Source: Methanoregulaceae archaeon (GTDB lineage Archaea > Halobacteriota > Methanomicrobia > Methanomicrobiales > Methanospirillaceae). From it: 64,000 bases of DNA. Location: NCBI GenBank assembly GCA_021371995.1, contig JAJFVA010000014.1, forward strand, positions 1-64,000. Reading direction: 5' to 3'. Of this stretch, positions 29,151 to 64,000 are shown piece by piece. The position numbers and the translations under genes were made by a program. How positions within the stretch are numbered: the stretch's first letter is position 1; the number at the start of each line of letters is the position of its first letter. The notes beneath the pieces are model-generated. The model did no database searches. It saw only the letters and a list, made by a program, of their open reading frames with translations, and was not told where the DNA came from.

Positions 29151-30101
29151 TCAGAGATCCGGCATCTGTCGTGCGATATACCATGCATGAATCGCAATGA
29201 TTCCATACAGTGGCAGGAGGTAATCGAAGGTAATGAACTGCCCCTGGGTCTCAAATAACCAGACCGTCGCATAAATATCGATCTGGAAGATCAGTATCCC
29301 CCACCATTTTCCGAGATAGAAATATCCAACTCCAGGGAGGACGAAATTGAGGAACGCCGCAATGTTCGGATTTTTTCTTGTCCGTGGCCGCCTTGCAAGG
29401 GCTCTCGGCAGGTATCGCGGCGAGATCCCGCACTTCTGGGATGCCATGACCGCCTCCCACCTCACCTGGTCATCGGGATCACGGATGGCCCGATAGAGGA
29501 GGGGGATAGCCTTCTCCTCACCGATCCTGCCAAGAGTCCTGACCGCCATCATACGGACCGATTTGTCATTATCTTTTGCAGCGATATCGAGTGAGGGGAT
29601 TGCATCCTTTCCCATATCAGCAAGCATGTCCCATTCCTGTTTCCCTGCAAAGAGGAATGCCAGTGTGGCTGGTTCATCAGGAGACCAGCCCATTTTTTCG
29701 AGCGCGACAGCAGAACCGTAGCGGACATACCGGTCAGGATCCCGTAATGCACCTTCAAGGGGACCAAGTGCCCGGGGATCAGCCATCTCGCCGAGGGCCA
29801 GTGCTGCCTCCCATCTCACCTCGTTGTCTTTATCCCTGAGGAGTCCGATTAATGGTTCCACGGCCCGGGGATCCCGGATCTCGCCAAGTGCCTCGATGAT
29901 TCCAAGGCGGATGTCTTTGTTCCGGGTTTTCAGGGCGGACAGCAGATGATCCATCCCTTCCGTCCCAAGCCCTGCAAGAGCACTGGAAGCCTGCCACTGA
30001 ATATCCAGGTTTTTATGACGGAGGGCTTTTATTAATCCGCGATAATTTCTCGCTTTCTTCAGGGTTTCGATATCAGGTTCTTCGCCATAAAAGATTGCCA
30101 T
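29151..30101 (-). CDS. HEAT-repeat protein with TM2-like membrane tail (copy 2)
   Basis: A 316-residue protein. Residues about 15-235 are five to six PBS-lyase-type HEAT repeats (for example RDPRAVEPLIGLLRDKDNEV and ADPRALGPLEGALRDPDRYV), a protein-binding solenoid. The C-terminal 75 residues hold NFVLPGVGYFYLGKWWG, the sequence pattern of TM2 domains, and two membrane helices. The solenoid should face the cytoplasm. It is a paralogue of the upstream neighbour 53 bases away and ends the calpain/PKD/HEAT row. No catalytic residues are apparent, so it may be a scaffold. Confidence 0.85.
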   Translation of the reverse strand: MAIFYGEEPDIETLKKARNYRGLIKALRHKNLDIQWQASSALAGLGTEGMDHLLSALKTRNKDIRLGIIEALGEIRDPRAVEPLIGLLRDKDNEVRWEAALALGEMADPRALGPLEGALRDPDRYVRYGSAVALEKMGWSPDEPATLAFLFAGKQEWDMLADMGKDAIPSLDIAAKDNDKSVRMMAVRTLGRIGEEKAIPLLYRAIRDPDDQVRWEAVMASQKCGISPRYLPRALARRPRTRKNPNIAAFLNFVLPGVGYFYLGKWWGILIFQIDIYATVWLFETQGQFITFDYLLPLYGIIAIHAWYIARQMPDL

Positions 30102-30154
30102 GGATTAAACCTTCCCCTGCCAGTACACATGACCGCAAAAAAAATGCCTTTTTT

Positions 30155-31120
30155 TCATAAGTCCGGCAACCCCCTGACATAATACCAGGTATGGACAACG
30201 GCAACCGCTGATATAGAATACGAAATAATGTAGGGGACGTATTTCGGGAGGAAAAGACCCATGATCAGGAGGGAGGTGACATTGATCTGGAAGACCAGGA
30301 ATCCCCACCACATACCAAGATAGTTATAGCCAAGTCCGATGAAAAAGAAGTTCAGGAGCATCGCAGCATACGGATCTTTCCGCTCCCGTTTTCTCCTGGA
30401 GAGCCCTCTTGGGAGGTGCATGAGAGGAATATTGCATTTTGGAAATGCCATGAGGGCTTCCCAGCGGACAGGTCCGCTGATATCCCGGAGGGCAAGATCA
30501 CAGGCCCCCTTTGCCCCGGGGTCATGCAGATCGCCAAGAATTTTTACCGCATGAGCTCTGACGGCCGGATCATAATCACGGAGATGGTGAATGAGCGGTC
30601 CGACCGGGACTTTTTTAAGAACCGGGATCTCGTCCCAGCGCTGTGCAGCGACAAGGAAGTATACCTGCCCTTCCGGATCTTCAGGGATCCATCCGTTCTT
30701 CTCGAGTGCAATTGCCACACCGTAACGTACATATTTATCCGGATCTTTGAGAGCTTTTTTCAGCCCTGCCAGGGCGGCTTCATCACCAATCTCACCAAGG
30801 GCAATTGCAGAAGCCCAGCGGACTTCATTGCTCTCATCACTGGAGAGAATGAGAAGAAGACCGGGCACTGCCTGGATGGTACGGAGGTCAGATAAGACCT
30901 CCACCACGCCTATCCTCATTTTACGGTCAGGGTGATCCAGGGCATTGATCAGTTTTTTTGTTGTGACGTCCCCGCCAAGCCGTTCCAAGGCTGACGCTGC
31001 CTTCCACTGGATGGTAAAGTCGCGATGGGCAAGGAGCCGGATAAGTTCATCGACATTCCACTCGCGCTCAAACCTGCTAACATCGGGTGTCTTCCCGATG
31101 GAAAATGGCAGGGAGGGCAT
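30155..31120 (-). CDS. HEAT-repeat protein with TM2-like membrane tail (copy 1)
   Basis: A 321-residue protein with the same plan as the following gene: a short lead, HEAT/PBS-lyase repeats over about residues 20-235 (RTIQAVPGLLLILSSDESNE; GDEAALAGLKKALKDPDKYV), then a TM2-like tail (LNFFFIGLGYNYLGMWWG) and two membrane helices. The two copies align along their whole length but have diverged clearly, so the duplication is not recent. It starts 30 bases after the large PKD protein gene. Confidence 0.85.
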   Translation of the reverse strand: MPSLPFSIGKTPDVSRFEREWNVDELIRLLAHRDFTIQWKAASALERLGGDVTTKKLINALDHPDRKMRIGVVEVLSDLRTIQAVPGLLLILSSDESNEVRWASAIALGEIGDEAALAGLKKALKDPDKYVRYGVAIALEKNGWIPEDPEGQVYFLVAAQRWDEIPVLKKVPVGPLIHHLRDYDPAVRAHAVKILGDLHDPGAKGACDLALRDISGPVRWEALMAFPKCNIPLMHLPRGLSRRKRERKDPYAAMLLNFFFIGLGYNYLGMWWGFLVFQINVTSLLIMGLFLPKYVPYIISYSISAVAVVHTWYYVRGLPDL

Positions 31121-31150: not shown

Positions 31151-33973
31151 TTAGTGTTCACGCTTGTTCCATCTCATATAAAATACGAGAGTAACGAGGA
31201 CTACCCCAAATACCACCGAGAGGTTTTTCAGGAGGACCAGGGTAGACGTCCCCTGGGTGAGAGCTCCGGTCACGGTCTCACCCTGATCTCCTCCTGATAG
31301 CAGTGTTGTTTCTTCTGCCTGGCCTGTGCTGGCAGCCGTTTGGGTTACCGTTCCAGGAGCTTCGTCTACGTCAGCCTCTGCCGTGGTCTGAGTCGGAACC
31401 GGGGTTTGCAAAGGAGTCCCGGTAACGGTCGCAATAGTCGTGGAGGTGGCTGCTGGTCCTGCTACATCACCACCACCTCCCCCTCCTCCACCACTGCCCC
31501 CGCCACCGGAAACAGCGGTTGAAATACTCAGGTAGAGCATCTGGAAGAAATTACCTGATTTCGAGAGGGAAGCAAGGCCAAACGTAGAGAGCCCGGAGGG
31601 AGACTCAGCCATGAAGAGATCGAGATCCCGTTCGTCATCATGGCCGAGGTATCTTGTATCAAGTACCTGACCGTTCCCGTCATCCCCGATCCGGATGACA
31701 TGGATGCTGTCACGCTCATCTTTGACTTCCATGCTGAGATTATAATCATAATATCCCCTTTTCATCAGCATTACATTGTGTAGTCCGGGCGCCAGGCCGG
31801 TTGCATTAACGGGCGAAAATCCCGCATAGTTACCATCGATATACACCCTTGCCCCTTCCGGCAGGGAGTTGATCATGAGTGTCCCCTTATCACCCCATCC
31901 AAAGGTACGGACCCATTCTGAATTCACTCCAAATATCAGGGTTGCCGTTTCCGCAGGTTCTGGAGGTTCCGCTTCGAATCGCACGGTATAGGCGATATCC
32001 TCAATTGTTCCATAATTATACATGGTTTTAATATCATCGAACAGGGAAAGGTCATCAGGGGTCGATCCCTCCCATTCTGCCACACGGATACTCCTCCCCG
32101 GTTCGTACTCAATCATATTCAGGGTGAAATTGAAGAAGCACCCGCTCCCTGCCTTCTGGCTGAAATTGGCGGGGTGAAGATCCCCGCTTGTGACAACAAT
32201 ATTCCTGACGGTCCCGGTTAGCACTCCATCTTCACAATAAGAGAACTCATTCCCGGTATCGCCAAGGAACCTGATGGAAGCCATCCCTGAATCTCCGGGA
32301 GGCACACACGTAATCACGGGTGTGCCGTTCTCCGTAATAAACTCACAAGTACCCGCTTGTGAAGTGTTCAGGGCAAGCAAGGTGTCAGTACCATTCAATG
32401 ACAATTCAATTCCGGCAGAGGGGAGGACACAGGTATGGTACGTTCCCTCCACTACCGTGATAAGCGACTGCTTTGGAACGGACTCATATCCAAAAATATT
32501 TGCCACAGTCAGATTCACATCGTATACTCCGGCATGGGTAAATACATGAACGGGATTTTGTTCATCTGATGTCTCTTTGTCACCAAAGTCCCAGTGCCAT
32601 TCGAATGGAAGACCGGAAGAAGTATCTTCGAATGCAACCGCAAGAGGAGCAGGACCACAGGTCCTGTTCTGGGTAAACTGCGGAACCGGGTCTGAACCGG
32701 CAGAGATGAAATTATCCTTACGGACAGCAGCCCTCTGGAATGGATTATACACCGTCAGAACGACAGTATAGGAACCTGCAGAATCATAGGTATGAACAGG
32801 GTTTTTTTCAGTTGAGGACACCCCGTCACCAAAATCCCAGGAACAGCCATCGTTCTGTCCCTCGGTAGTATCAGTAAATTGAACGGTAATGGGTGCCTTC
32901 CCCTGGGTAACATTTGAAGTATAATCCGCTACAAGGGGTGGCATCGAAGTGCCGAATGTATACAGGAAAACATCAAAGTCGCCATTCCTCATGTCAGACC
33001 ATATCACCCTGTCTCCCCAGATCGCCGGATTATACTTTGGAGACCTGGTTGCATCTGATGAGACCGGAGACTCTGTCATCGTGGTGATATCGATGCATGT
33101 TACAACCGTGTCGTTGATATAAGCAACAATATCCCCAGAAATAACCGGGCTCTCACGGTAATAATCTCCTTCAGTGATCCGGGTCTCTTCCCCTGACAGA
33201 AGGTCGTAGAGATAAATCTGGGAAGAAACATCCCGGTTATCCATCCAGACGATACGATCTTCCCATATCGCAGGTGCCATCTGGGCGTAGGGGTCTGTTG
33301 TGATCTGTGTTTCATTCCCGCTGGTGATATTAAACAGGTAGATCTCAAAATTCCCCATCGAGGCATTCCTGGCATCCTCCCAGACAACCCGGTCTCCCCA
33401 GATAGCCGGAGATCTGGCTGAAGAAGATGAAATATCGCCAAGTTTCGTTACACTTCCGGAATTTATATCATACCAATGCACCGAACATTCAGATTCCCCT
33501 TCTATCCCTTCCTGCCATACGATCCAGTCTCCCCAGATTTGAGGTGTGACCTGGTTGACCTGGTCATTGGTGATCCGCTGCTCTTTTCCCGTTGAGAGAT
33601 TGTAAAGGTGAATCTCGAAATTATCGTCCTCATATGTCTGCCAGACGATTCGATCTTCCCAGATATCCGGCATATCCTGGTACGGCAGGATTGTGGGGAT
33701 TCTCATTATTTTACCGGAGGAGGTGTTATAGAAAATAAGGTCAGTATAATAAATCTCCGGATCTTCCAGGCTTGGATAATAATGGGCCCAGATAATCCGG
33801 TCATCCCAGATTGCCGGATTGAGCTGGTCGGTTCCCCATGTTGCAGCAGATACACAGGTTTCAGTCCCTGCCAATGCCTGAACATCTCCTGAAATTACCG
33901 GAGAACTAAGAAAAACCAGAAAAATTAGGCATATTAAACAGCCCGATCTCAATCGGAACCCTGGCTGCTTCAC
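31151..33973 (-). CDS. Secreted beta-propeller/PKD/PEGA surface protein with C-terminal anchor
   Basis: A 940-residue cell-surface protein. The GTG at 33973 follows GGGAGG (33981-33986) and gives a signal peptide (LICLIFLVFLSSPVISG). Residues about 40-360 hold at least six TolB-like propeller blades of the type WGDRVVWEDARN...GNFEIYLFNITSG...ITTD. Two PKD domains follow (CSWDFGDG and WHWDFGDK), then a beta-rich part, a PEGA repeat (LPEGARVYIDGNYAGFSPV), a glycine stretch, a Thr-rich stalk, and a C-terminal membrane helix before KREH. It lies downstream of the calpain-like gene and upstream of the HEAT pair, all on one strand. Confidence 0.88.
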   Translation of the reverse strand: MKQPGFRLRSGCLICLIFLVFLSSPVISGDVQALAGTETCVSAATWGTDQLNPAIWDDRIIWAHYYPSLEDPEIYYTDLIFYNTSSGKIMRIPTILPYQDMPDIWEDRIVWQTYEDDNFEIHLYNLSTGKEQRITNDQVNQVTPQIWGDWIVWQEGIEGESECSVHWYDINSGSVTKLGDISSSSARSPAIWGDRVVWEDARNASMGNFEIYLFNITSGNETQITTDPYAQMAPAIWEDRIVWMDNRDVSSQIYLYDLLSGEETRITEGDYYRESPVISGDIVAYINDTVVTCIDITTMTESPVSSDATRSPKYNPAIWGDRVIWSDMRNGDFDVFLYTFGTSMPPLVADYTSNVTQGKAPITVQFTDTTEGQNDGCSWDFGDGVSSTEKNPVHTYDSAGSYTVVLTVYNPFQRAAVRKDNFISAGSDPVPQFTQNRTCGPAPLAVAFEDTSSGLPFEWHWDFGDKETSDEQNPVHVFTHAGVYDVNLTVANIFGYESVPKQSLITVVEGTYHTCVLPSAGIELSLNGTDTLLALNTSQAGTCEFITENGTPVITCVPPGDSGMASIRFLGDTGNEFSYCEDGVLTGTVRNIVVTSGDLHPANFSQKAGSGCFFNFTLNMIEYEPGRSIRVAEWEGSTPDDLSLFDDIKTMYNYGTIEDIAYTVRFEAEPPEPAETATLIFGVNSEWVRTFGWGDKGTLMINSLPEGARVYIDGNYAGFSPVNATGLAPGLHNVMLMKRGYYDYNLSMEVKDERDSIHVIRIGDDGNGQVLDTRYLGHDDERDLDLFMAESPSGLSTFGLASLSKSGNFFQMLYLSISTAVSGGGGSGGGGGGGGDVAGPAATSTTIATVTGTPLQTPVPTQTTAEADVDEAPGTVTQTAASTGQAEETTLLSGGDQGETVTGALTQGTSTLVLLKNLSVVFGVVLVTLVFYMRWNKREH

Positions 33974-34031
33974 CACACACCCTCCCAACCATCCGACGAA
34001 TCCCCCATACTGCAACCTCTCTGTTTGAATG

Positions 34032-34766
34032 TTATCCAGGAATCACATATCCATATTCGTTGAAATTCGCTGTGAAATCAGCCGTTGATATTGTGATAAG
34101 CGAGCCCCCGCACGGATTTCTCAATTGATATCCGGTCGGGTTCGTGGTCTTTTTCAAAACTGAGTAGGTATGATTACTTGTTAATCCTGCCCCGGCTCCG
34201 GCTTTAGTTTTGGCCACCGAGGGATAGGTTGTCTTATTACCTGCAGCAGCATTAAAGACAAATGCTCCGGTTTTTAAAGTACCGCCGCAAATATTCTGAA
34301 GTGCAGTAAGCCCGTTTCCGCCATTCAAAAGAGTACCAATCGGCGGTGTATCCGAATGCCCGGGATCCAGCCATTTCGCATATGCTTTCTCATACAGGCA
34401 AGGCCAGATATACGCACTGCTGGACCGGGCATACACCAGATTGCTGGCAGTGTCAACGGCAAGCACTGAATTTGTCGTGAATGAAGGATCCCACACCTTA
34501 TTCACCGTGTTGTAAAACTGGTAATTTGGATGTGTTTTCAGTTTCGCTGGTGCAGCCCATGCAACCGATATGAGAGCGGCAATGAAAAAACAGTCATTCA
34601 CACTTCCCTGGAGGGGTTCTGTATAGGTCTTTGTGGTACCTACTCCTTTTCCTGTATCATTCCAGCTTGCGAACTGCCTGGTTTCAATCGCACAAGTTGC
34701 ACCACTCTTTGCCGGATCAGACAACCATGACTGATTGTCAATACTCTCCTTGCTTCCTCTCATCAT
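34032..34766 (-). CDS. Minimal calpain-family (C2) cysteine protease-like protein
   Basis: A 244-residue protein. Gln53 and Cys59 lie in LQGSVNDCFFIAAL, matching the calpain oxyanion Gln and nucleophile (QG-x-x-x-D-C-F/W-x-x-A). WPCLYEKAYAKW (121-132), a Gly-rich GG-x-T-ALQNICGG stretch, His199 in TSNHTYSVLK and Asn217 in QLRNPCG complete the C-H-N triad and the EKAYA signature. There is no signal peptide, no C2 domain and no EF-hand, so it is a bare protease core, presumably cytoplasmic. It lies 58 bases upstream of the PKD surface-protein gene. The third residue after Asn is Cys-Gly instead of the common Trp-Gly. Activity is inferred. Confidence 0.78.
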   Translation of the reverse strand: MMRGSKESIDNQSWLSDPAKSGATCAIETRQFASWNDTGKGVGTTKTYTEPLQGSVNDCFFIAALISVAWAAPAKLKTHPNYQFYNTVNKVWDPSFTTNSVLAVDTASNLVYARSSSAYIWPCLYEKAYAKWLDPGHSDTPPIGTLLNGGNGLTALQNICGGTLKTGAFVFNAAAGNKTTYPSVAKTKAGAGAGLTSNHTYSVLKKTTNPTGYQLRNPCGGSLITISTADFTANFNEYGYVIPG

Positions 34767-35169
34767 GTCCCTTCACCATCAAATTTGCATTCTATCGCCA
34801 GAACAGATAATGAGCAACGGTTGACTTATCGACAACAGAGCGAACCCGGGGATCTCCCCGGGTATCCCTCATTACATCAAACTGCCTCTCCGGATGATAA
34901 TTTCCCCCGAACCCCACTATCATTGGCTCAATTCAGTACTTCGGGAAAAAGCATATATACCTTTGGATTCAATGCGAGCATTTTCATCGTCGTTCAGGCA
35001 GGATGTCCGAATTCCAAATCGTCCCCCAGTATCTGTGACGTTCAGGGATTACTTCATATAAGAGTTGAAAAACCTATGCAACGCAGTTGAGAGAATCATC
35101 CCTGATGATGGTTCATCATACAAAAGATTTTAATTCCATAAAAAATGTTCTTTGATGAAATGGCCCATT
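34767..35169. other. 403-base intergenic region between the calpain-like gene and argF
   Basis: No convincing gene is seen on either strand; short frames present have no ribosome binding site. It contains the strong hairpin at 34844-34863 and several AT-rich boxes near 34960 and 35125-35150. The start of the calpain-like gene has GGTGAAGGG just before it. The gap separates the minus-strand calpain/PKD/HEAT row from the minus-strand argF, so it should hold the promoter for the former and the terminator for the latter. Confidence 0.5.
34844..34863. repeat. Strong GC-rich inverted repeat (9-base arms)
   Basis: ACCCGGGGA-TC-TCCCCGGGT has 9-base perfect arms around a 2-base centre. As RNA it would give a stable hairpin, and as DNA it is a candidate binding site. 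It sits about 78 bases upstream of the calpain-like start codon. Confidence 0.55.
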
Positions 35170-60264: not shown

Positions 60265-63200
60265 ATGAGACAAAAAGAGATCCTGCTGTTATTCATACTT
60301 ATGGTGCTCATGTCGGGATTCATCCCTGCATCTCCTGCAGAGAAGATTTCCGATTCCTATATTGCACCAGATATTTCCGATATACTGGGGACGGTCCCGT
60401 TCCCCTTTGAAGTAGCCGATACGGTCGCAACCGTCCCGGCAGCAATGCCAGAAGACCAGGAGAGCCTGACCTCCTCACAACCGCTCTTCTTTATCAAAAA
60501 CCAGGGGCAGAGCAGTGGAGAGGTCCTCTTTGAGGTCATCTCTGATGGAGGAATTGTATTTTTTACCCGTGATGGAGCAGTTATCCGGGTAATCAGGTCG
60601 GTCAATGACGAGCTGATATCATCGACAATCGGATTCACCTACGAAGGAGCATCTGGAACTTCAGAAGTAAAAGGACTTGAACCGCTCCCATGCAGCGTCA
60701 ATTTCATGAAGGGGGATCCTTCAGAATGGATTACCGGCGTTAAAACATATCGTGCTATTTCTTATCCTGACCTGTATCCCGGGATAGACCTCATCTATGA
60801 AGGCAGATCCGGGGGGCTAAAAAGCATTTTCAGGGTAAAGCCGGGATCGAATCCTGAATCGATAACGACGCTATATACTGGTCACGAGGGTCTTACCATC
60901 GCAACTGACGGGACACTCCGGATCCGGACTGATGCCGGAACCCTGACCCAGAGTGTTCCTTACTGCTATCAGGAAATTGACGGGGAGAGGATCAGAATTC
61001 CCGCTTCCTTTATCCTGTTATCCGACAACCAGGTGGGGTTCAGGTTTGGGGAGTATGACCGGGAAAAAGATCTTGTTATTGACCCGGTTATCGAATACAG
61101 CCTCTATCTGCGGGGGGTAGGATTTGCTGATGCCAACGATGTGGCTGCAGATTCACAGGGGAATGCATACATCACCGGACTAACGTTCCCGGCACCCTTT
61201 GATCCGAATGGAACCCTCAGCGGAGGGACTGATGCGGTCATCGTGAAGATTAATCCTGATGGAACCGTGCCGGACTATATTACATATTTAAGGGGAAACG
61301 GCAATGATGCGGGGAACAGTATCAGCGTTGATCCGGATGGTTATGCCTATGTAACAGGATCCACCAATTCAACAGATTTCCCTGTCATACAGGAGATCCA
61401 GTCAGTAAATGCAGGCCAGAACGATGCATTCGCCTTAAAACTGAATAAAAACGGCACGGGTGTATATTCCACCTATATCGGAGGGACTGGTCAGGACTAC
61501 GGGTATGGTATCACCATCGATTCTGCGAGAAATACCTATATTACAGGTACTACCGGCTCCAGCGTATTCCCGCTCAGCCATGGCTTCCAGAATACCTCCT
61601 ATGCAGGGAATAATGATGCATTTGTTGTAAAAATCAATACAAACGGGACCCAGTTCCTTTATTCTGAATATATCGGGGGTTCCATGTATGAAAACGGATA
61701 TGGAATCGCTGTTGATAGTACCGGGAGTGCCTATATTACCGGAGAAACAAATTCCTTCAGGGATTTCCCGGTCAAGAATGCTTTCCAGCCTTCCTTTGGG
61801 GGGTACAAAGATGCTTTCGTCACGAAACTCGCACCTGAAGGGCACTCTTTTGTCTATTCCACGTATCTTGGAGGGTCTGACCTGGATACCGGGCGTGCCA
61901 TCGCTGTAGATGAGGCAGGATATGCCCATATTACGGGGCTTACCAGGTCGCCAAATTTCCCAACCCAGTCGGCGTTTAATTCCGAAAACCCTGGTGGATT
62001 TCTTATCAGTTCATTCTATACCCGGCTTCAACCGGGGGGTAATACCCTCGCCCTCTCCACTTACCTCACCGGTCCTGCCAATGATGAGGGGAGGGGTGTA
62101 GCAGTTGATACGTCAGGAAACGTCTATATAACCGGGCTTACAAAGGCCAAAAAACTGGTGACAATCAATGCATTCCAGCCAGTCTTCGGGGGCGGAGTCT
62201 CAGATGCATTTGTCGCTAAATTTGTTCCGGGGCAGAATACGCCTGAATTCCTCAGTTATCTTGGCGGCAATGGAAAGGATGAGGGACATGCCGTCGCAAT
62301 CGATAATAACTGCAGGATATATACCGTCGGACTTACCAAATCAACCGATTTCCCGTCCAGCAATCCTTATCCCCCTGCCTTTTTACCGCGTGAAGAAGGA
62401 GGATTTATCACAGTGTTGCGGGATGGCGACTGCTGCCCGGCTCCCACGGCAGACTTCAGTTACGTCCTTCCGGATTGCACAGAGGTTCTCACAGTAAAGT
62501 TCACGGATACTTCCACCAACAGCCCGGATAACTGGTCCTGGGAATTCGGGGATGGATCGTTATCAGTTCAACAAAATCCCCTGCATACCTACTCTGCACC
62601 AGGTCCTTACACGGTAAATCTCACGGTGCATAAGACCTGCATCAATAACACTGTCCTGAATTCTACTGTTTCAAAACAGTTTACGGTCGTTTTGGAAACG
62701 GTACCGGTGGCAAACTTCACAGCAAACCCATCATCCGGAACCGCACCGCTCACTGTCCAGTTCAATGACACCTCTTCAAGTAATCCCTTCAACTGGTCAT
62801 GGGAGTTCGGGGACGGGTCAATCTCAAACCTGCAAAATCCGATACATGAGTATATCGCCTCCGGCACATATTCCGTGAACCTCACCGCAGGCAACAGGTG
62901 TGGCAATGATTCAGTCACAAAACTGGTCAATGTCACGGTCTGCCCTCTGCCGATCGCAGACTTCACTGCAAACCCGTCATCCGGAACCGCACCGCTCACT
63001 GTCCAGTTCAACGATACTTCTTCAAATAATCCCTTCAACTGGTCATGGGAGTTCGGGAACGGGGCTGTCTCCTTCGGGCAGGATCCACTGTATACGTATA
63101 GTTCCCCTGGTACTTACCCGGTGAACCTCACGGTCAGGAATGAATGTGGTAATGATTCGGTCACAAAACCCATCACGGTTCTTCCCCCTGTGACAACCCC

Positions 63201-64000
63201 GACAACCTGCCCGACCACCATTATCACCACAATACCAACCACCTGCACGTCTCCATGCCCCACGACGATTATTACTACCATACCGACTACTATCCCCACA
63301 ACAGTGCCAACTACGGTGCCGACAACCATACCTACTACCTGCCCGACCACCATTCCCACATCTGAACCAACTACGGTGCCGACAACCATACCTACTACCT
63401 GCCCCACTACCATTCCCACATCTGAACCAACTACGGTGCCGACAACCATACCTACTACCATACCGACATGTCCCACTACTCCGCCAACAACCGTTCCTAC
63501 TACCTGCGTCACTACGATCCCCACGACCGAACCGACCACCTACCCGACGAATGTTGTCCCGCCGCTCCCCCATGCTTTCTACGGGGAGATCATGATTGAC
63601 GGTGAGCCGGCTGAGGCAGGAACGATTATCACGGCTGTTGTTACGGGAGGAGGGGGATCTGTCGAGACTGTTTCCGATGGAATGTATGGGAGTCCCGACA
63701 CTTTCGGTGACAAACTGGTCGTCCAGGGACTCATTTCATCCGGGGCACCTATTGCCTTCTATGCGGATGGTAACCGTGCCGAATGTTTTGATGTAGTGAC
63801 AGATGGCCCCTGGATGCTGACCTATCCCTTTACCTCCGGAGAAGTGACAGAGCTTGACCTCCGGGTTGTCGAAATGCCACCTGATGAACCTCCTGTGGCA
63901 GACTTCGTAGCAGACAAAACTACCGGTCCATCCCCCCTGTCGGTATCATATACTGACACCTCTACCAATTCACCGGACTCATGGCTCTGGGATTTTGGCG
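60265..64000 (+). CDS. Giant SBBP/PKD/Thr-Pro-rich surface protein (partial, runs off the window)
   Basis: At least 1245 codons without a stop. A signal peptide (LLLFILMVLMSGFIPASPA) is followed by a domain with FFIKNQGQ and YPDLYPGIDLIYEG that precedes SBBP repeats. Residues about 290-700 are seven or more SBBP beta-propeller repeats of the type DSTGSAYITGETNS...DFPVKNAFQ...DAFVTKL. Three PKD domains (SWEFGDG, SWEFGDG, SWEFGNG) follow, then a Thr-Pro repeat stalk with cysteines (about 975-1093), a beta domain (AFYGEIMIDGEPAEAGTIITAVVT), and the start of a fourth PKD domain. It should be an extracellular, adhesion-like or envelope protein. The end is not visible. Confidence 0.93.
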   Translation, partial: MRQKEILLLFILMVLMSGFIPASPAEKISDSYIAPDISDILGTVPFPFEVADTVATVPAAMPEDQESLTSSQPLFFIKNQGQSSGEVLFEVISDGGIVFFTRDGAVIRVIRSVNDELISSTIGFTYEGASGTSEVKGLEPLPCSVNFMKGDPSEWITGVKTYRAISYPDLYPGIDLIYEGRSGGLKSIFRVKPGSNPESITTLYTGHEGLTIATDGTLRIRTDAGTLTQSVPYCYQEIDGERIRIPASFILLSDNQVGFRFGEYDREKDLVIDPVIEYSLYLRGVGFADANDVAADSQGNAYITGLTFPAPFDPNGTLSGGTDAVIVKINPDGTVPDYITYLRGNGNDAGNSISVDPDGYAYVTGSTNSTDFPVIQEIQSVNAGQNDAFALKLNKNGTGVYSTYIGGTGQDYGYGITIDSARNTYITGTTGSSVFPLSHGFQNTSYAGNNDAFVVKINTNGTQFLYSEYIGGSMYENGYGIAVDSTGSAYITGETNSFRDFPVKNAFQPSFGGYKDAFVTKLAPEGHSFVYSTYLGGSDLDTGRAIAVDEAGYAHITGLTRSPNFPTQSAFNSENPGGFLISSFYTRLQPGGNTLALSTYLTGPANDEGRGVAVDTSGNVYITGLTKAKKLVTINAFQPVFGGGVSDAFVAKFVPGQNTPEFLSYLGGNGKDEGHAVAIDNNCRIYTVGLTKSTDFPSSNPYPPAFLPREEGGFITVLRDGDCCPAPTADFSYVLPDCTEVLTVKFTDTSTNSPDNWSWEFGDGSLSVQQNPLHTYSAPGPYTVNLTVHKTCINNTVLNSTVSKQFTVVLETVPVANFTANPSSGTAPLTVQFNDTSSSNPFNWSWEFGDGSISNLQNPIHEYIASGTYSVNLTAGNRCGNDSVTKLVNVTVCPLPIADFTANPSSGTAPLTVQFNDTSSNNPFNWSWEFGNGAVSFGQDPLYTYSSPGTYPVNLTVRNECGNDSVTKPITVLPPVTTPTTCPTTIITTIPTTCTSPCPTTIITTIPTTIPTTVPTTVPTTIPTTCPTTIPTSEPTTVPTTIPTTCPTTIPTSEPTTVPTTIPTTIPTCPTTPPTTVPTTCVTTIPTTEPTTYPTNVVPPLPHAFYGEIMIDGEPAEAGTIITAVVTGGGGSVETVSDGMYGSPDTFGDKLVVQGLISSGAPIAFYADGNRAECFDVVTDGPWMLTYPFTSGEVTELDLRVVEMPPDEPPVADFVADKTTGPSPLSVSYTDTSTNSPDSWLWDFG
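62710..63063 (+). repeat. Near-identical tandem PKD modules
   Basis: Blocks of about 108 bases at 62710-62817 and 62956-63063 are nearly identical at the DNA level, including the words encoding ANPSSGTAPLTVQFND and PFNWSWEFG, with a 246-base period. The near-identity of silent sites suggests recent duplication or gene conversion. Confidence 0.8.
63307..63458 (+). repeat. 60-base minisatellite encoding the Thr-Pro stalk
   Basis: A 60-base unit starting CCAACTACGGTGCCGACAAC at 63307 repeats at 63367 with two mismatches and again, partly, at 63427. It encodes a 20-residue unit of Pro-Thr-Thr triplets with one Cys (PTTVPTTIPTTCPTTIPTSE). Such repeats expand and contract easily. Confidence 0.85.

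Follow-up and report, generated by a model that had tools for sequence, protein, structure and literature searches.

Calpains, the C2 family of cysteine peptidases, were reported to be absent from archaea (Rawlings 2015, PMC4631099), and this was restated in a 2022 Sci Rep paper (PMC9380684); in the literature searched on calpain in methanogens, Asgard archaea or Methanomicrobiales, we found no report contradicting that absence. In the rat calpain 2 core, the calcium sites are formed by Ile89, Gly91, Asp96 and Glu175 and by Glu292, Asp299, Gln319 and Glu323 (Rawlings 2015, PMC4631099). Here we describe a C2 peptidase encoded in a 64 000-nt stretch of a Methanoregulaceae archaeon genome (contig JAJFVA010000014.1; the whole stretch is called the window). 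With the eukaryotic calpain cores (MEROPS C2; calpain-1, -2, -3, -8 and -9) it has in common the catalytic Gln, Cys, His and Asn, the EKAYA region and the fold, but it has no C2-like or penta-EF-hand domain, most of the core calcium-site residues are missing, it is about 60 residues shorter and identity in Foldseek alignments is 14–19%. Bacterial C2 peptidases with an N-terminal LFDPxxxSPLY domain (from Caldithrix, Corynebacterium hylobatis, Sanguibacter, Terrabacter and others) are placed together with the archaeal proteins in the tree; compared with them, three features are lost in the window protein, namely this N-terminal domain, the calcium site 1 Glu and the Trp that comes after Asn-Pro. 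Its gene is followed by that of a surface protein resembling the archaeal beta-propeller/PKD surface proteins (PDB 1l0q; TIGR04275), with which this partner shares propeller and PKD and to which it adds a domain termed A4, PEGA, a transmembrane (TM) anchor and an invariable association with a gene for a C2 peptidase.

The peptidase gene and the codons of its putative catalytic residues are located as follows.

34032..34766, minus strand: C2 (calpain-type) cysteine peptidase, 244 amino acids (Pfam PF00648, AlphaFold2 model, hydropathy)
34608..34610, minus strand: codon of Gln53, the putative oxyanion-hole Gln (the same in all 39 archaeal, all 14 bacterial and both human rows)
34590..34592, minus strand: codon of Cys59, the putative nucleophile and first residue of helix 59–71 (the same in all 39 archaeal and all 14 bacterial rows; DSSP)
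34170..34172, minus strand: codon of His199, the putative catalytic His, directly before strand 200–208 (invariant in 39/39 archaeal rows; DSSP)
34116..34118, minus strand: codon of Asn217, the putative third triad residue, directly after strand 211–216 (archaeal rows)

The reading frame starts with ATG and its stop codon is counted within the coordinates. These coordinates are exactly those given in an earlier note on this DNA, made from the letters alone, which had proposed a minimal calpain-type protease without naming the strand (it is minus); Q53, C59, H199, N217, QGSVNDC and EKAYA all lie at the residue numbers reported there. The C2 profile match that the note suggested looking for was obtained: residues 50–168 match PF00648 (Peptidase_C2) with 30 bits (E = 3.5e-7; the curated cut-off is 23.8 bits). 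It is the single Pfam domain found in the protein, with neither C2-like nor penta-EF-hand domain detected by Pfam in the 244 amino acids, in agreement with the proposal that only the catalytic core is present; the core calcium-site residues turned out to be mostly gone as well. No match was found in NCBIfam. A single-sequence search of the PDB placed calpain-9 at the top but with an E-value of just 0.063, and a profile built from 17 homologues matched the calpain-9 core at E = 5.7e-25, covering most of it. The AlphaFold2 model computed from the 17-homologue alignment (pLDDT 82.8, pTM 0.84; residues 1–25 disordered) was compared with known structures using Foldseek, where all 36 matches below 0.001 are calpains (best E = 3.8e-9; leading matches at TM 0.67–0.69 by query length), so that the structure prediction also called for in the note led to calpain cores as best matches. 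Weaker fold matches include papain-like toxin structures. As regards the catalytic core, the window peptidase securely belongs to the C2 family, and no second C2 match was found in the source genome.

The secondary-structure placement of Cys59, His199 and Asn217 is that expected for a papain-type fold, and the view that the three come together in the predicted structure rests on the fold match and on these positions. By homology, Cys59 would attack the peptide bond, His199 would act as the base with Asn217 orienting it, and Gln53 would form the oxyanion hole. Position 217 is Asn in 31 of the 39 archaeal rows, Asp in 7 and missing from 1 truncated row; in the seven sequences with Asp (L060, L118, L119, L121, L122, L124 and L129) the triad of the C2 peptidase reads Cys-His-Asp. 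As judged from the alignment, the active site is retained while the remaining sequence drifts, the archaeal homologues (n = 39) being mostly 30–40% identical. dN/dS for six pairs lies between 0.05 and 0.37, which indicates that purifying selection maintains the gene. By simple hydropathy, on which all signal-peptide and TM assignments given here are based, neither a signal peptide nor a TM segment was detected in the window peptidase or in any of the archaeal homologues checked. Several archaeal members carry 4–10 Cys. The N-terminal Cys25 of the window protein is kept in many homologues (not in all); that it could serve as a thiol switch is speculation.

Calcium dependence was considered by mapping the rat calpain 2 sites in our own alignment, in which Asp96 corresponds to the residue 9 before the Cys and Glu175 to that 2 before a conserved Trp. 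At site 1 the window peptidase keeps an acid (Glu50) but has Tyr at position 119; Glu is found at the equivalent position in 28/39 archaeal and 13/14 bacterial rows, and both the Asp and the Glu of this site are kept in the majority of the archaeal relatives and in almost all of the bacterial ones. Site 2 is also lacking: N217 is followed by PCGGSLITISTADF, and these 27 residues to the end leave no room for it. Where both human cores and almost every bacterial row have a Trp after Asn-Pro, the window peptidase has Cys. On these sequence features the protein would not be classed with the calcium-regulated calpains, and because the core calcium-site residues are largely lost it is probably calcium-independent, a statement that holds for its sub-branch and not necessarily for every archaeal member.

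The genes that accompany the peptidase, which had been missed in the earlier note, are the following.

31151..34015, minus strand: partner surface protein, 954 amino acids from the first TTG (domain matches, hydropathy, model, adjacency in 39/39 loci)
30155..31120, minus strand: HEAT-repeat protein A, 321 amino acids, with a C-terminal membrane domain of about 75 amino acids (GLGYNYLGMWWG; Pfam HEAT_2, A3 profile)
29151..30101, minus strand: HEAT-repeat protein B, 316 amino acids, with a C-terminal membrane domain (LPGVGYFYLGKWWG; Pfam HEAT_2, A3 profile)

The likelier start of the partner is GTG at 33976 or 33973. Its architecture comprises a signal peptide, seven TIGR04275 propeller repeats (198 bits for the seven), two PKD domains, the conserved domain A4 and PEGA, followed by a Gly/Ser/Thr-rich linker, a TM helix and a short basic tail; signal peptide and C-terminal TM helix were called by hydropathy, here and in the partners of other loci. 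In the model (940 residues), a long body rich in beta structure is joined by a disordered linker to a terminal helix (911–939), and the best fold match is 1l0q, an archaeal surface-layer propeller-PKD protein. The cytosolic tail is about 8 residues long (YMRWNKREH), which would leave little for an enzyme in the cytosol to touch directly. A second large PKD-containing surface protein is encoded on the plus strand at 60265–63999 and runs past the end of the window.

The association between the two genes is strict. In all 39 archaeal homologues with a downstream open reading frame in view, the next gene on the same strand encodes a propeller/PKD/TM protein of about 1000 amino acids, the spacing ranges from -77 to +121 bp and the propeller profile matches at all 39 downstream positions. 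The downstream frame has at least 600 codons in 36 of the 39 loci; of the three shorter ones, that of L052 runs into a contig end, that of L118 is interrupted by a stop and that of L127 carries a frameshift. Three further peptidase–partner pairs were found (L123, L149 and L150). Viewed from the other side, every assessable propeller protein of the partner type has a calpain in front, the calpain-less ones being cut by a contig end (L095, L102, L103 and L148) or truncated (L096), and in the source genome the sole C2 gene adjoins the sole TIGR04275 protein. Domain A4 was rejected as a marker of the pair on its own, since it occurs in propeller-less, calpain-less proteins (L144–L147); A4 without a propeller comes with no calpain, which makes the propeller, not A4, the specific link. 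We therefore consider it strongly supported that peptidase and surface protein are the two halves of a conserved pair, and their constant placement in some 40 related genomes suggests that the two proteins probably work together.

Another explanation, and the least probable of those considered, is that the peptidase is a solitary housekeeping protease whose adjacency to the surface-protein gene is inherited synteny without functional meaning. The whole gene order on the argF side is conserved in the source genus and in some relatives, and this part of the synteny is indeed plain inheritance. However, the pair is retained among different neighbouring genes (L062, L064, L065, L070, L113, L115, L116 and L117) and it moves and vanishes as a unit: both genes are found at another place in one genome (G042), and both have been lost together from between argF and the HEAT genes in another (G026). 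The sequences also diverge jointly. Relative to close congeners (L052, L053 and L056), argF is 93–95% identical, HEAT A 67–69% and HEAT B 80–82% (where present), in comparison to only 36–56% for the calpain and 44–60% for the partner. Across 21 loci calpain and partner distances are correlated (r = 0.63; partial correlation 0.55 given HEAT B; reached in 0/2000 permutations), a co-divergence exceeding the HEAT B background. The speed at which the two change together suggests that peptidase and partner are matched to each other locus by locus.

The two membrane proteins with HEAT repeats usually lie in the cassette and probably belong to the system as its third part. The HEAT pair lies 3' of the peptidase–partner pair in the source genus and others and 5' of it in genus g5 and in L130. 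It is present in 43/45 calpain genomes (in the exceptions, G005 and G038, the calpain is near a contig end) and in 49/49 genomes with a strong partner-domain match; the Fisher P-values for this co-occurrence (2e-30 and lower) ignore phylogeny and are descriptive. Several genomes carry the HEAT pair unlinked to the peptidase–partner pair, which weakens the case for its part in the system. With its TM2-like C-terminal membrane domain, the HEAT pair (29151–31120) occurs in 60/232 genomes of the class and is commoner than the peptidase.

Upstream of the peptidase gene, one intergenic feature stands out in the alignments.

35020..35086, minus strand: conserved block in the argF–peptidase intergenic region (alignment with L052 and L053, and more weakly with L056)

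From its sequence conservation this block is a probable promoter/leader of the cassette. A TATA-like sequence (AAAGGTATATATGC) is located at 34951–34964, and an inverted repeat with 9-bp arms (ACCCGGGGA-GA-TCCCCGGGT) at 34844–34863 on the minus strand, in a leader stretch missing in three aligned relatives; the repeat is a possible operator or hairpin. An Rfam search of the intergenic region gave a lone sub-threshold match to MicC, which was taken as chance.

Homologues of the peptidase were found in 45 of the 232 genomes of the source's class and in 12/12 sampled genomes of its genus; the nearest relatives come from contigs labelled Methanoregulaceae archaeon, which bears out the earlier note's placement of the enzyme in a methanogen. 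Among the 393 genomes of the phylum searched, matches are restricted to the source's order. To call such enzymes little described in methanogens, as the note had done, was an understatement in view of the two papers (PMC4631099 and PMC9380684) reporting that calpains were not found in archaea, though automatic annotation of such archaeal proteins as C2 peptidases may well exist in databases. Contamination was rejected on the grounds that homologues occur in all sampled genomes of the genus, mostly at the same argF site, and also in single-contig assemblies (G022 and G036). A viral origin was likewise rejected, as 2.9 million viral contigs yielded no relative of the peptidase.

In the tree, the archaeal peptidases and eight bacterial ones form one group (support 99/92) and, in this small sample, the human calpain cores group with other bacterial sequences. 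Archaeal monophyly is neither established nor rejected (p-AU = 0.287), so that transfer between archaea and bacteria may have run in either direction. Seven long archaeal forms (L062, L064, L065, L066, L067, L069 and L132) share with bacterial C2 peptidases (L078–L083) an N-terminal domain of about 70 amino acids (NPFALAE ... PYxxLFDPxxxSPLY), which spans archaea and several bacterial phyla and is unnamed in the Pfam scans made. Judged from its sequence, the window peptidase looks like a shortened derivative. Among the bacterial C2 genes examined, none has a propeller partner directly behind it.

In our preferred account, to which as a whole we give about even odds, the window peptidase is an intact, cytosolic papain-fold C2 enzyme which has been cut down to its catalytic core, forms a conserved pair with a surface protein and acts in signalling. 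The likeliest mechanism would link a protease inside the cell to a sensor or an adhesin on its surface: the propeller protein would bind something outside the cell, its state would be relayed at the membrane, perhaps through the HEAT proteins, with repeats that should lie on the cytosolic side, and the peptidase would then cleave a specific cytosolic or membrane-proximal target. On a more far-reaching and more tentative reading, peptidase, propeller protein and HEAT pair would constitute an undescribed archaeal system for outside-in proteolytic signalling (or conflict), in which a surface receptor controls the cytosolic protease and matched receptor–protease pairs diversify fast. Strict pairing and co-divergence suit an enzyme–substrate pair equally well, and it is somewhat less likely, yet quite conceivable, that the peptidase acts in maturation or quality control, cleaving the nascent or mis-inserted surface protein, its tail or a co-inserted HEAT protein for biogenesis; the order of peptidase then partner in one operon-like arrangement also agrees with such a role. 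However, the peptidase appears to be cytosolic while the partner is predicted to lie nearly all outside with a very short tail, and related surface proteins that lack the propeller have no adjoining peptidase of this kind.

A function in defence or conflict, the propeller protein sensing a virus or contact with a neighbour and the peptidase being a suicide effector or toxin-like enzyme, seems unlikely. The hypervariability of the pair at a fixed chromosomal site (36–56% for the calpain against 93–95% for argF), its patchy occurrence and joint loss, and the papain-like toxins among the weaker fold matches would suit it, but PADLOC anti-phage models gave no match for peptidase or partner and only generic ones for the HEAT proteins, the genes near the cassette in the window have housekeeping roles (argF and purD) and form no defence island, and no sampled genome of the genus is without the peptidase. 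We thus rank signalling above maturation and maturation above defence, all three being inferences. Still more doubtful is the idea that the peptidase leaves the cell without a signal peptide and acts extracellularly, with the partner or foreign proteins as its targets. The partner is extracellular, several peptidase members carry 4–10 Cys and secreted enzymes exist among bacterial C2 peptidases (PMC4631099); against this, all hydropathy-checked archaeal members are without signal peptide or TM segment and the cassette shows no gene of a secretion system.

Arguments about the origin of calpains have relied on their reported absence from archaea, and a maintained archaeal family removes that premise. 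This family, which extends through a single order of methanogens and groups with a single bacterial clade, does not by itself unite archaeal and eukaryotic calpains, since in our tree the human cores are found among other bacterial sequences. For prokaryotic calpains of this kind, the strict pairing provides a concrete lead to their role, with a partner and likely regulators named.
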